Shown: piece by piece, positions 26,394 to 31,092 of the stretch
How the letters are laid out: the number at the start of each line of letters is the position of its first letter
Numbering within the stretch: position 1 is the first letter of the stretch
Assembly (NCBI RefSeq): GCF_014196965.1
Contig: NZ_JACIEQ010000001.1
Coordinates: forward strand, 1,634,986-1,698,985
DNA: 64,000 nt
Origin: Actibacterium naphthalenivorans
GTDB lineage: Bacteria; Pseudomonadota; Alphaproteobacteria; Rhodobacterales; Rhodobacteraceae
Direction of reading: 5' to 3'
The notes under the pieces: model-generated
What the model saw: the letters and a program-made list of their open reading frames with translations, nothing else
The model's database searches: none
Told to the model about the DNA's origin: nothing
Program-made: the position numbers and the translations under genes

Positions 26394-27341
26394 TCAGGCG
26401 GCGGCGCGCATCGCTTCGGCCACGGCGCTTTTGGGCACCAGTGTTACCTGCGACAGATCCAGCCCCGCCGCCCCGGCCACCTCTGCCAGCGGCAGCCCGT
26501 CAAGCAGCAGCAGCGCGTTGTCCGGCGCCTCATCCGAGGCTTCGACCGTCAGCATGGGCGCGGGGTGGGTCTCGTCGTCATAGACCACGGCGAGCGTGTC
26601 TTCGGATGCGTCGTAATCCTCGATCAGCGCGGGGCCGCCATCGTCGATCCAGTCGCCCAGGATGAAATCATCGGCCCCTTCGCCGCCGTTCACGTTATCC
26701 CCGGCTCCGGCAAACAGCATGTCGTCGCCTTCGCCGCCATTGAGATAATCGCGAAGGCCGTCATCCTCCCATTCCTCATCGGGGGTGATGCCGAGGATCG
26801 TGTCATCGCCGGCATTGCCGTTCAGCACATCCGCGCCGCCGCCGCCAAGAACGATGTCATCGCCTTCGCCGCCCATCAGCCCGTCGTTGCCCTCGCCGCC
26901 CGACAGGATGTCGTCGCCCGGCCCGCCGATCATCTGGTCATCGCCGCCGCCGCCGTTCAGAATGTCGTCCCCGGCCTGGCCGAGAAGCATGTCATCGCCT
27001 TCGCCGCCCGCGGCCTGGTCATCGCCGAGGCCGCCGGGCAGATCGTCATCGCCGGTGGCGCCGATCAGCGTGTCATCGCCCTCTGCGCCGATCAGCAGGT
27101 CGTCGCCCGCGCCGCCGTCCAGCATATCATCCCCGGCCCCGCCATAGACGACATCGTCGCCCATATGCGCCAGGATGGAGTCGCCTTCATCGCCCCCCTC
27201 GATCGTGTCGTTTTCATTCGTGCCCTCTGCAAACGGGCCGTCGCCGTTGTTTTCGCCGTCTTCTTCGGCCGGGCCTTCTGTCGGGAAAACCCCCGACACG
27301 CCGACCACCAGAAGACCCAGCAAACCTGCCAAGCCAAACAT
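26394..27341 (-). CDS. RTX-repeat calcium-binding protein with N-terminal membrane segment
   Basis: A 315-residue very acidic protein. A hydrophobic N-terminus (about 2-19) is followed by an acidic linker. About fifteen consecutive nonapeptides of the GGxGxDxLx type run over residues 49-185, with three more near 200-225, forming calcium-loaded beta-rolls. A C-terminal domain (about 230-315) includes VVYDDETHPAPML. Such repeats usually mark type I-secreted proteins, but no ABC/MFP secretion genes are near and the N-terminal hydrophobic stretch suggests Sec export or anchoring instead. The start at 27341 has AAGGG upstream. Biological role unknown. Confidence 0.82.
   Translation of the reverse strand: MFGLAGLLGLLVVGVSGVFPTEGPAEEDGENNGDGPFAEGTNENDTIEGGDEGDSILAHMGDDVVYGGAGDDMLDGGAGDDLLIGAEGDDTLIGATGDDDLPGGLGDDQAAGGEGDDMLLGQAGDDILNGGGGDDQMIGGPGDDILSGGEGNDGLMGGEGDDIVLGGGGADVLNGNAGDDTILGITPDEEWEDDGLRDYLNGGEGDDMLFAGAGDNVNGGEGADDFILGDWIDDGGPALIEDYDASEDTLAVVYDDETHPAPMLTVEASDEAPDNALLLLDGLPLAEVAGAAGLDLSQVTLVPKSAVAEAMRAAA
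26787..27197 (-). repeat. tandem 27-bp units encoding RTX nonapeptides
   Basis: About fifteen in-frame, degenerate 27-base units, each coding for GGxGxDxLx. On the plus strand they appear as recurrent ATCGCC-rich blocks. The periodicity is protein-driven, not a CRISPR or minisatellite. Confidence 0.85.
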
Positions 27342-27459
27342 CACCCTTACCCTTCCCGAAACCACCCGCCCGCGATCGCGCGACGGGAACCACCACGTTC
27401 AGGTTACACGTCAATCGCCCCGCCACCTGCGGATTTCTGACCGGATGGTTAGCCGGAGG

Positions 27460-28128: not shown

Positions 28129-29112
28129 ATGCCAGATAAATCGCAAATCCTGTGGATGTACGAGACCATGGAGAAGGCGCGCTATTACGAAGACACGATG
28201 GCCGCCGTCTACATGGAAGGAAAATCACCCAAGTTCGACATCGGCGCCGGTACCATCCCCGGCGAGATGCACCTTGCCGCCGGGCAGGAACCCTGCGCCG
28301 CCGGCGTCTGTGTTCACCTGAAAACCGAGGATGCGGTGACGGCAACACACCGGCCGCACCATGTGGCCATCGCCAAGGGCGTGGACCTCAAGAAGATGAC
28401 GGCCGAGATTTTCGGCAAGGCTGACGGCCTTGCCGGCGGGCGCGGCGGGCATATGCACCTGCTCGATCCGGCGGTGAATTTCTCGTGCAGCGGCATTATC
28501 GCCGAAGGCACCAGCCCCGCCGTCGGCGCGGCCCTAGCCGCCAAGCTCAAGGGCACGGATGCGGTGGCGGTTTCCTACCTTGGCGATGGCGCGGCCAACC
28601 AGGGCGGGTTCCACGAGGCGCTGAACCTCGCCGCGCTGTGGAACCTTCCGGTGATTTTCGTGATCGAGGATAACGGTTGGGGCATTTCGGTGTCCAAGGC
28701 GAAATCCACCGCCGTGCCGGACAACAGCGTGCGGGCGGCGGGCTATGGCATGCCGGGCTTTCACGTGGCCGACAATGACACGCTGAAACTGTTCGAAGTG
28801 GCGGGCGAAGCGGTCGCGCGCGCCCGCAGGGGCGAAGGCCCGACGCTGATCGAGGTCGAGACCTACCGCTACTACGGCCACTTCCAGGGCGACCCCGAGA
28901 TGTACCGCCCGAAGGATGAGGTTGCCGAGCTGAAGGCGAAGGACCCGATCAGGCGTCTGCGCGATGCGGCCATCGCCGACGGCACGATCACCGAGGCCGA
29001 GGCCGACGCGGCCCGCACCCGGGCCCATGCCGAAGTGGATGAGGCCTTCGCCTTTGCCCGCGCCTCTGCCTATCCCGCCCCCGAAGACGCGCTGACAGCC
29101 GTTTTCGCGTGA
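28129..29112 (+). CDS. thiamine-diphosphate dehydrogenase E1 component, alpha subunit (acetoin/2-oxo acid type)
   Basis: A 327-residue E1-alpha. The thiamine-diphosphate motif GDGAANQ...EDN spans 152-182, and GKADGLAGGRGGHMHLLD (96-113) resembles acetoin-dehydrogenase-type E1. The conserved active-site loop usually written RGHGH or RDHGH reads HRPHHVAIAKG (74-84) here. With E1-beta it would decarboxylate a 2-oxo acid or cleave acetoin and hand a hydroxyalkyl/acyl group to lipoate. The substrate is unknown. First gene of a four-gene plus-strand operon without E2 or E3. Confidence 0.9.
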   Translation: MPDKSQILWMYETMEKARYYEDTMAAVYMEGKSPKFDIGAGTIPGEMHLAAGQEPCAAGVCVHLKTEDAVTATHRPHHVAIAKGVDLKKMTAEIFGKADGLAGGRGGHMHLLDPAVNFSCSGIIAEGTSPAVGAALAAKLKGTDAVAVSYLGDGAANQGGFHEALNLAALWNLPVIFVIEDNGWGISVSKAKSTAVPDNSVRAAGYGMPGFHVADNDTLKLFEVAGEAVARARRGEGPTLIEVETYRYYGHFQGDPEMYRPKDEVAELKAKDPIRRLRDAAIADGTITEAEADAARTRAHAEVDEAFAFARASAYPAPEDALTAVFA

Positions 29113-29134
29113 CATCAGTTCGAGGAGTCAGATC

Positions 29135-30154
29135 ATGACCAGCAATCGTATTCTTCCCATGTCGCGCGCCATTTCCGAAGCCATCGCCCAGGAAATGCGC
29201 GCCGATCCGTCCGTTTTCGTGATGGGCGAGGATGTCGGCACCTATGGCGGCATCTTCGGGGCCACAACCGGCCTGCTTGACGAGTTCGGTGAAGCACGCG
29301 TGCGCGACACGCCGATTTCGGAAACCGGGTTCATCGGCGCGGGCGTTGGCGCGGCCATGTCCGGCATGCGCCCGATCGTCGAGCTGATGTTCGTCGATTT
29401 CTTCGGCGTCTGCATGGATGCCATCTATAACCTGGCGGCCAAGAACACCTATTTCTCTGGCGGCAACTTCAAGGTGCCCATGGTGATCATGACGGCCACC
29501 GGCGGCGGGTATTCCGACGCGGGCCAGCATTCGCAAACGCTGCACGGCATGTTCGCCCATCTGCCGGGGCTCAAGGTCGTGGCGCCGTCGAACGCCTATG
29601 ACGCCAAGGGGCTGATGAAAACCGCGATCCGTGACGACAGCCCGGTGATGTTCATGTTCCACAAGGGGTTGCAGGGCCTTGCCTGGATGGCCTCGCCCGA
29701 TGCCGCGGCGACGGTCGTGCCGGAAGAGGATTACGCCATCCCCTTTGGTCAGGCCAAGGTGGTGCGCGAAGGCAAGGATGTGACCATCGTGACCCTGTCG
29801 ATGATGGTGCACAAGGCGCTCGACGCGGCGGATGCGCTGGCGAAAGACGGGATCGAGGCCGAGGTGATCGACCTGCGGACCGTCGTGCCGCTGGATCGCG
29901 ACACGATCCTGAAATCGGTCGCCAAGACCGGCCGGCTGATCGTGGTGGACGAGGATTACAAGAGCTTCGGGCTGAGCGGCGAGATCATCGCCACCGTGGC
30001 CGAGCGTGATCCGGCCTGCCTGAAATCCGCGCCGCGCCGTCTGGCCGTGCCGGATGTGCCGATCCCCTATAGCCGGCCGATGGAACAGTTCGTTCTGCCC
30101 AGCGCCGACAAGATTGCCGCCGCCGCGCGCGAAAGCCTTGGCAAGGCCGCGTGA
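29135..30154 (+). CDS. thiamine-diphosphate dehydrogenase E1 component, beta subunit
   Basis: A 339-residue E1-beta with the expected blocks: FVMGEDVGTYGGIFGATTGL, RVRDTPISETGFIGAGVGAA, GGGYSDAGQHSQTLHGMFAHLPG (active-site histidine region), and the C-terminal transketolase-like domain with EVIDLRTVVPLDRDTI. It pairs with the alpha subunit encoded 22 bases upstream. A GAGGAG site precedes the ATG. It ends one base before the lipoyl gene. Confidence 0.92.
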   Translation: MTSNRILPMSRAISEAIAQEMRADPSVFVMGEDVGTYGGIFGATTGLLDEFGEARVRDTPISETGFIGAGVGAAMSGMRPIVELMFVDFFGVCMDAIYNLAAKNTYFSGGNFKVPMVIMTATGGGYSDAGQHSQTLHGMFAHLPGLKVVAPSNAYDAKGLMKTAIRDDSPVMFMFHKGLQGLAWMASPDAAATVVPEEDYAIPFGQAKVVREGKDVTIVTLSMMVHKALDAADALAKDGIEAEVIDLRTVVPLDRDTILKSVAKTGRLIVVDEDYKSFGLSGEIIATVAERDPACLKSAPRRLAVPDVPIPYSRPMEQFVLPSADKIAAAARESLGKAA

Positions 30155-30155
30155 C

Positions 30156-30398
30156 ATGGCCGACATTCTGATACCCGCCGGTCTTTGGGATACAGACCTC
30201 AACCCCGAGGGCATCGTCGCCAACTGGTTCTTCGGCGAGGGCGCGGCGGTTGCCAAGGGCGATGTGGTGGCCGAGATCATGGTCGAGAAATCGACCTTCG
30301 ATATCGAGGCCCCGGAGGCCGGAGTTCTGCACCGCGTGATTCCCAAGGACGGCGTGGTGCGCCCCGGTGTGGCGATCGGAACGGTGGATGCCGCCTGA
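30156..30398 (+). CDS. free-standing lipoyl-domain carrier protein
   Basis: An 80-residue protein that is only a lipoyl/biotinyl-attachment domain. The modified lysine should be Lys45 in IMVEKSTFDIEAPEAG, with the downstream GVVRPGVAIGTV completing the beta-sandwich. No subunit-binding or acyltransferase domain is attached, unlike normal E2 proteins. Lipoyl rather than biotinyl modification is inferred from the E1 genes before it and the lipoate-ligase family gene after it, and from the absence of the AMKM biotin motif. The start is one base after the E1-beta stop, implying coupled translation. Confidence 0.88.
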   Translation: MADILIPAGLWDTDLNPEGIVANWFFGEGAAVAKGDVVAEIMVEKSTFDIEAPEAGVLHRVIPKDGVVRPGVAIGTVDAA

Positions 30399-31092
30399 CA
30401 CGGCGGCGCCCGCCACATACGCGCGGCAGCTGAAGCGCTTTGCCTCGGCAGAGGAAGCGCTTCGGCGGCAGGACGGTTTTGACACCAGCCCCTTTACGCC
30501 GGATCAGCCTTCGCTGCTGGTCTGGCAGTCGCCCCGCGGGTTGCTCGCGGCGCCGTCCGATTCCCGCCTTGCGGGGTTCGGTGACGCGGCGCGGGCCTGT
30601 GCCGCGGCGGGATGGCCTGTCGCGGTTCGTCGCGCGGGCGGGGGGCTGTGCCCGGTATCGCCCGGCACGTTGCAGTTTGCCATAAGCCGCCCGGTCGCGG
30701 GGGGGCTGACCATCGAAGCGGCCTATGCCGAGATGGTTGCGCTGATCGAAAGGCTGCTGGGCCGGTTCGGCCTTTCGGCGCAGGTCGGCACCTGCGAGAC
30801 GGCGTTCTGCCCGGGCCGCTACGACATCGCGGTCGCGGGCCGCAAGATCGCAGGGATGGCGCAGACATGGCGCAGCCGCGCCGGGGTCAGAACCGCGACC
30901 ACCGGCGCCTCGCTCATTCTGAACGAAGATCCAGAGGTTCTGGCCGATGCCGTCAACCTGTTTTACAGCACCGCGCAAAGCCCCCTGCGTTGTGACGCCG
31001 GCGCCATCGGTTCGCTGAGCGGTACCCTGGCGCGCGACGTGCCGGTGGCCGAGGTGCTGGCCGCGCTGGAACCGGGCCCGGCGCCGCGGTAA
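30388..31092 (+). CDS. lipoate-protein ligase A family protein
   Basis: A 234-residue protein of the BPL/LplA/LipB fold. It has VRRAGGGLCPVSPGTLQFAI (about 80-99), matching the RRxSGG loop of LplA, and the catalytic-type lysine Lys153 in DIAVAGRKIAGMAQTWR. It should attach lipoate (or octanoate) to a lysine, most simply the carrier encoded just upstream. Its ATG lies inside the end of the lipoyl gene (11-base overlap). At 234 residues it lacks most of the C-terminal accessory domain of E. coli LplA. It could alternatively be an amidotransferase of the LipM/LipL kind. Confidence 0.85.
   Translation: MPPDTAAPATYARQLKRFASAEEALRRQDGFDTSPFTPDQPSLLVWQSPRGLLAAPSDSRLAGFGDAARACAAAGWPVAVRRAGGGLCPVSPGTLQFAISRPVAGGLTIEAAYAEMVALIERLLGRFGLSAQVGTCETAFCPGRYDIAVAGRKIAGMAQTWRSRAGVRTATTGASLILNEDPEVLADAVNLFYSTAQSPLRCDAGAIGSLSGTLARDVPVAEVLAALEPGPAPR

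Follow-up and report, generated by a model that had tools for sequence, protein, structure and literature searches.

A split thiamine-dependent dehydrogenase operon with a free lipoyl protein and a LipL-like gene, without an E2 core, in Actibacterium naphthalenivorans

Introduction

In textbook 2-oxo acid dehydrogenases the lipoyl arm is tethered to a large E2 (acyltransferase) core, and intermediates thus stay with the complex. How a dehydrogenase might work whose operon encodes a detached arm and no core is the question raised by a locus of Actibacterium naphthalenivorans, which lies in the stretch of 64,000 nucleotides analysed here (the window; C1:1634986-1698985 of the host genome). Four intact genes on the same strand encode the E1-alpha and E1-beta subunits of a thiamine-diphosphate dehydrogenase, a lipoyl protein and a protein of the LplA fold, with spacings of 22, 1 and -11 bases, the start of the last gene overlapping the lipoyl gene by 11 bases (Table 1). 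The initial annotation had described these genes as tightly packed, the carrier as detached and the operon as devoid of E2 and E3 (the enzyme that reoxidises the carrier), and this description is borne out: the frames have Pfam matches above cut-off, the lipoyl protein stands alone at 80 aa, and no match to the E2 core (PF00198) or to E3 (TIGR01350) was found in the window, all three host-genome matches to the former and both above-cut-off matches to the latter falling outside it.

The reading that we prefer, at a probability of slightly under one half (about 0.48), takes the operon for a split dehydrogenase that depends on thiamine and has a diffusible 80-aa carrier; a LipL-like enzyme would lipoylate the carrier, and the dehydrogenase would borrow an E2 acyltransferase and E3 in trans.

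Results

Relatives of the operon have a split E2

The operon was compared with its relatives at 44 loci, scanned with profiles built in this analysis. Relatives at 60-80% E1-beta identity comprised 19 plasmid records, of which 17 were taken in and two (H24 and H35) left out; L124 duplicated the L060 record and was removed, G645 and G421 denote one genome (Thalassovita), and G195 is Aquibaculum. A separate, lipoyl-free E2 core is encoded at 24 of the 44 loci and is absent from 19 (window included), and at one locus, in Paraburkholderia, the E2 is fused and of the acetoin type. The operon is a member of a family with a split E2, in which a free lipoyl protein is usually accompanied by a separate acyltransferase core of about 225 residues, and which ranges over Alphaproteobacteria, Rhodococcus, Sphingomonas and haloarchaea (the last three among the plasmid records).

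Phaeobacter, Gemmobacter, Paracoccus, Roseibium, Aminobacter and Mameliella have the LipL-like gene last, preceded in order by E1-alpha, E1-beta, the gene for a 77-aa lipoyl protein and that for a lipoyl-free E2 core of 210-230 aa; the Aminobacter E1-alpha is a 103-aa fragment, and the Mameliella E1-beta frame is short. The E2 core is followed by LipA in Rhodococcus and by a hydrolase in Sphingomonas. E1, a free lipoyl protein and a separate E2 core, with no LipL-like gene, make up the loci of Halobaculum, Natrialba and Natrinema, and three Haladaptatus loci have E1 and the lipoyl protein with neither core nor LipL-like gene. At two E2-less loci the E1-alpha frame is short (G1129) or the LipL-like gene lies 2.4 kb from the lipoyl gene (G1121). 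E3 is not part of these operons: when the 44 stretches (9-64 kb) were searched by tblastn with one E3 (1e-20), only that of G008 was matched. The possibility, raised at the outset, that relatives regularly carry both missing enzymes in the operon therefore holds for E2 (24/44 loci) but not for E3 (1/44).

Several further observations were made at these loci. In G008 an E3 gene and a further lipA copy are about 3-4 kb away from the operon, and lipA lies within the split operon or close to it in three cases, G008, Rhodococcus opacus and Mameliella (L035, L066, L128). The Paraburkholderia operon (L068) encodes a fused alpha/beta-hydrolase-type E2 (NF011457, 463 bits, cut-off 307) followed by a LipL-like gene, and several Caballeronia plasmids carry E1-beta and LipL-like matches about 1.4 kb apart.

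The E2 core is missing in several lineages, and other cores are available in trans

Seven changes of the E2-less label occur on the E1-beta tree, at least five of them on well-supported branches. One bacterial E2-less lineage consists of the window, Thalassovita, an Afipia metagenome-assembled genome and Aquibaculum, and the others consist of G201, G299, G376, G1120, G1121 and G1129, of G537, G706 and G630, and of G703 and G1091. The same gene order as in the window is present in Thalassovita (E1-beta 90% identical) and in the Afipia genome and Aquibaculum (82-83%), and because of this recurrence an operon by chance is not in question. In G703 and G1091 the gap between the E1-beta and lipoyl genes is 70-71 bases, and it is 67-75 bases in 13/15 core-bearing relatives, a spacing that would fit a clean removal of the core gene.

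Eleven E2-less genomes were searched for E2 cores with PF00198 (G1091, G1120, G1121, G1129 and the Haladaptatus genomes stood outside this search). Cores with lipoyl domains were found in all eleven. A lone core was recognised by the length of its open frame, all other frames having at least 393 aa. None was present in 10/11 genomes, and in the eleventh, the window's genome, the lone core lies inside a second split cluster; one G201 match has an internal stop. The idea that every E2-less genome keeps a dedicated lone core elsewhere was accordingly rejected. That second cluster (C3:303950-307444, or 5951-9445 of L030, which is C3:298000-316000) encodes E1-alpha, E1-beta, a 103-aa free lipoyl protein, a DUF6506 protein and a lone 253-aa E2 core; since it is complete, an E2 core in trans exists in the host. 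GcvH, LipB, LipA and E3 genes are also carried elsewhere in the host genome, and a GcvH gene was found in 14/14 genomes, the Thalassovita match being listed with an internal stop.

A residue signature accompanies the bacterial E2-less form

By its PDB matches, which are mostly lipoyl domains of E2 or protein X, and its sole Pfam match, PF00364, the lipoyl protein has an E2-type domain, and the GcvH- or LbpA-like role raised as one alternative in the initial annotation is not indicated. Directly behind the lipoyl Lys stands Ser/Thr in 16/16 bacterial E2-less loci and Val/Ile/Ala in 17/17 bacterial loci with a separate core, and among all columns of the lipoyl protein this position is the sole one without overlap between the two bacterial forms. 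It was read by script at 40 of the 44 loci; four, kept out of the pair tests described below, were read by eye (Val in three haloarchaea, Ile in Paraburkholderia). In the LipL-like protein, residue 144, three positions after Cys141, is Arg in 16/16 E2-less homologues versus 1/15 from loci with an E2 core, and is Arg also in Paraburkholderia, beside the fused E2. This signature may be taken as a lead, not as proof, either for recognition between carrier and enzyme or for a carrier that has changed its partner.

A changed partner would fit the chief competing explanation, in which no E2 is used, CoA transfer by an E2 core has been given up and the acyl- or aldehyde-loaded carrier passes its group or its electrons to a thioesterase, an alpha/beta-hydrolase-type acyltransferase or a redox partner. 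In its favour are the absence of the core from the operon in several lineages, the lone core not found in 10/11 genomes and the Ser/Thr, and the alpha/beta-hydrolase-type E2 of Paraburkholderia implies that PF00198 is not the sole solution among these enzymes. We nevertheless regard it as rather unlikely, as lipoyl-bearing E2 cores are present in 11/11 E2-less genomes and as clustering of the neighbours at the 44 loci found, apart from the genes of the operon itself, no gene family common to the lineages without E2 save a sigma-54 regulator of three loci. A shared neighbour as E2 substitute was rejected, the E2-less neighbours being mainly lineage-specific (for example the gcv, cupin and Rieske genes in one family).

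In three genomes of one family, G201, G299 and G376 (L032, L033, L034), the E2-less operon lies a few kb from gcvH (TIGR00527), the proposed lipoyl donor, with gcvT and gcvP recognised by eye, and cupin and Rieske genes are shared by several loci of that family. Upstream of the E2-less operons of Aquibaculum (L031 3860-5227) and G706 (L094 4330-6012) lies a Pyr_redox_2 flavoprotein gene, followed in G706 by one for a DUF5368 protein; by eye, without a scan, no such gene was noticed adjoining the window operon.

The LplA-fold protein resembles LipL

The best NCBIfam matches of the LplA-fold protein were LipL models, at 54 bits versus 17 for the ligase model. In a structure comparison, which speaks only to the families on the list used (VIA list), its top matches were the LipL-type structures 2p5i and 2p0l, which scored five Z units higher than any ligase. 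Cys141 is invariant among homologues (19/19 and 32/32) and aligns with the Cys of a SYCPG-type loop in 2p0l and 2p5i, which we take to correspond to the catalytic Cys150 of Bacillus subtilis LipL. The accessory C-terminal domain of ligases was not found in the 234-aa protein, in which PF21948 and a sub-threshold PF03099 were the only matches. Cys141, the missing domain and the matches to LipL models and to 2p5i/2p0l make it more plausible that the protein is an amidotransferase of the LipL type, supplied by GcvH, than that it is a ligase dependent on ATP. A candidate modifying enzyme of the operon's own, as first proposed, is thus indeed encoded, but its designation as a lipoate ligase probably does not hold up.

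We consider it improbable that the protein is a genuine lipoate ligase, using ATP to modify the carrier. It has the PF21948 fold, some records are annotated as 'lipoate--protein ligase', and Lys153 in a GRK motif, invariant in 32/32 homologues, is presumably retained as in ligases. The scores, Cys141, the fold comparison and the missing domain stand against a ligase, as does the motif itself, which in LplA reads RRxTGGG...HD according to the available part of PMC3904984 and in the window protein RRAGGGLCPVS, the His being missing.

Homologues of the LipL-like protein are uncommon (E up to 1e-6), occurring in 5/385 genomes of the class and 21/394 of the family, the window's own genome being included in both counts. 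At 6 of 22 LipL-like places, in six Rhodobacteraceae genomes (L096-L101), no E1-beta or lipoyl match was present in flanks of about 1.5 kb.

The E1 pair forms its own subgroup

The E1 proteins have their Pfam thiamine-diphosphate domains and keep the EMHL and QHSQ motifs, which we take to be catalytic, and the nearest solved chains of E1-beta are those of pyruvate dehydrogenase (PDH) E1-beta. E1-alpha reads THRPHH in the window, and HRPHH is present in 40/42 aligned sequences, whereas the remaining two, from Paraburkholderia and the host's second cluster, read HRGHG; the E1 family of the operon is therefore an E1 subgroup of its own. No residue fully separating E2-less from core-bearing forms was found in the E1 alignment. 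A regulator family lies near 16/44 loci (13 with an E2 core, three E2-less, the window not among them); of two members scanned, that of the G703 locus is a sigma-54/Fis activator, and that of Phaeobacter has DhaR as best model (118 bits, cut-off 551). This family hints at a hydroxyketone as a possible substrate, though no member of it lies near the window operon.

The second cluster also offers an explanation in which the window operon would supply an accessory E1 and carrier to that cluster's core, the only lone one found in the host genome. We hold it to be quite improbable: such a core is present in 0/10 of the other E2-less genomes tested, the two E1-beta proteins share only 50% identity, and the E1-alpha of the second cluster differs in the HRGHG motif.

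The operon is unlikely to be decaying

All four genes are under purifying selection (dN/dS, the ratio of nonsynonymous to synonymous substitution rates, 0.03-0.42 in four pairs), the LipL-like gene evolving fastest; no E2-core remnant was found within 10 kb around the window operon, and none was clear at the E2-less loci, where the one marginal match was in Thalassovita (E 0.076). That the operon is a functionless, decaying leftover of an E2-bearing ancestor, as the E2 core gene of relatives and the fast-evolving LipL-like gene might suggest, is highly improbable and was rejected, the frames being intact, dN/dS well below 1 and the arrangement recurrent in several lineages. The initial annotation had named, among what would refute it, decay of a copy whose relatives bear E2 and E3; relatives do often carry E2 in the operon, but this copy is not just decayed.

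Table 1. Positions of the operon features within the window
Feature	Position	Strand	Evidence
E1-alpha, thiamine-diphosphate dehydrogenase, 327 aa	28129-29112	+	PF00676 258 bits
E1-beta, 339 aa, QHSQ motif	29135-30154	+	PF02779 143 bits, PF02780 136 bits
Free lipoyl protein, 80 aa, one E2-type lipoyl domain	30156-30398	+	PF00364 38 bits (cut-off 22)
Lys45 codon, predicted lipoylation site, context MVEKSTFDI	30288-30290	+	
Lys45 and Ser46 codons	30288-30293	+	Ser46 is the position of the residue signature
LipL-like lipoyl/octanoyl amidotransferase candidate (LplA fold), 234 aa	30388-31092	+	PF21948 54.5 bits (cut-off 27)
Cys141 codon, candidate nucleophile of the LipL-like protein	30808-30810	+	Conservation and alignment with 2p0l/2p5i
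Arg144 (Cys+3) codon of the LipL-like protein	30817-30819	+	Homologue alignment
Lys153 codon, GRK motif of the LipL-like protein	30844-30846	+	Invariant in 32/32

Upstream of the operon, on the opposite strand, lies an acidic open reading frame (window 26394-27365, -) with GGAGDD-type repeats, which by eye is like RTX calcium-binding proteins.

Discussion

A split dehydrogenase that borrows E2 and E3 would work in the following steps. LipB and LipA would make lipoyl- or octanoyl-GcvH, from which the LipL-like protein would take the group onto Cys141 and transfer it to Lys45. With a 2-oxo acid or acetoin-like hydroxyketone as the substrate that it cleaves, E1 would reductively acylate the free carrier, a step for which the reductive acylation of an excised lipoyl domain, described in the available part of PMC6270654, is a precedent. 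A resident E2 core would move the acyl group to coenzyme A, the candidates being those of PDH, of 2-oxoglutarate dehydrogenase and of the second cluster, and the housekeeping E3 would reoxidise the carrier.

Several points weigh against this reading. The curated LipL cut-offs are far from reached by the LplA-fold protein (54 vs 400 bits and 44 vs 450 bits). In the accessible part of PMC10332631, LipB is the all-purpose transferase of Proteobacteria, so that a LipL-like enzyme is not obviously needed, and around the operons of haloarchaea, Rhodococcus and Sphingomonas a stretch of 5 kb contains no same-strand LipL-like gene. PF00198 is blind to acetoin-type alpha/beta-hydrolase E2, and another kind of E2 in trans is thus possible. 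The signature of Ser/Thr and Arg144 was spotted post hoc, and Val follows the lipoyl Lys at each of the three E2-less Haladaptatus loci. When independent pairs are drawn from the E1-beta tree, 4/4 among bacteria and 4/5 among all loci agree with the signature, with one undecided, and at p 0.125 at best the pairs are too few for significance; only three changes of the E2-less label are needed on the LipL tree, and a minimum of one is forced.

The operon shares with acetoin and 2-oxo acid dehydrogenase complexes the E1 alpha-beta pair, the lipoyl carrier and, near 16/44 loci though not in the window, a regulator (the two scanned members being sigma-54 activators), but its carrier is not fused to E2, it has no E2 core and its E1-alpha reads HRPHH, not HRGHG. 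The LipL of the Bacillus and Staphylococcus lipoyl relay, in which the group passes from GcvH to E2, is matched in best model and fold, in the place of the Cys and in the single domain; the window enzyme differs in lying far below the model cut-offs, in occurring beside LipB in Proteobacteria and in sitting with one dedicated free carrier. As far as the available parts of the sources go, LipL is known only from Firmicutes (PMC3904984), its demonstrations are listed in Firmicutes and Tenericutes (PMC10332631), all 108 LipL counts in Table 4 of PMC3917532, a survey with no Proteobacteria, are Firmicutes, and human LIPT1 mirrors the lipoyl relay (PMC7253636).

The LbpA/sHdr system with its sLpl(AB) ligase, as presented in the accessible parts of PMC6067878 and PMC10332631, likewise combines a free single-domain lipoyl protein with a modifying enzyme of its own in the operon, but LbpA is GcvH-like and occurs with Hdr-like proteins and a true ligase, whereas the window operon has an E2-type lipoyl domain, E1 genes and a LipL-like enzyme. 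Single-domain lipoyl proteins of archaea are noted in the available text of PMC3904984, and with LbpA they make the free lipoyl protein as such already known. Haloarchaeal 2-oxoacid dehydrogenase operons resemble the window operon in having E1 and a free lipoyl protein, with the core separate or, in Haladaptatus, absent; in contrast, no LipL-like gene was found in them and the three E2-less loci have Val after the lipoyl Lys. An operon of Haloferax volcanii with an unattached lipoyl domain and neither E2 nor E3 was reportedly described by van Ooyen and Soppa in 2007. A search for phrases on a free-standing or unattached lipoyl protein returned only the LbpA paper and a review on nuclear magnetic resonance. 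No E2-less, LipL-coupled bacterial operon was found in the literature searched, which is weak evidence, most subscription journals being outside it.

A bolder reading would be that a dehydrogenase lineage has repeatedly dropped E2, its diffusible lipoyl protein giving its acyl group or electrons to a new, non-E2 acceptor, with the switch in bacteria marked by the Ser/Thr and by the Arg of a private LipL-type enzyme, the first such relay in LipB-bearing Proteobacteria; on present evidence we think this unlikely.

With a family whose arm is detached, and sub-lineages in it that have no core, experiments can directly address whether the arm must be tethered and, when it is free, which acyltransferase it is able to use. 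The operon also suggests a dedicated counterpart of the LipL lipoyl relay in Proteobacteria that already own LipB.

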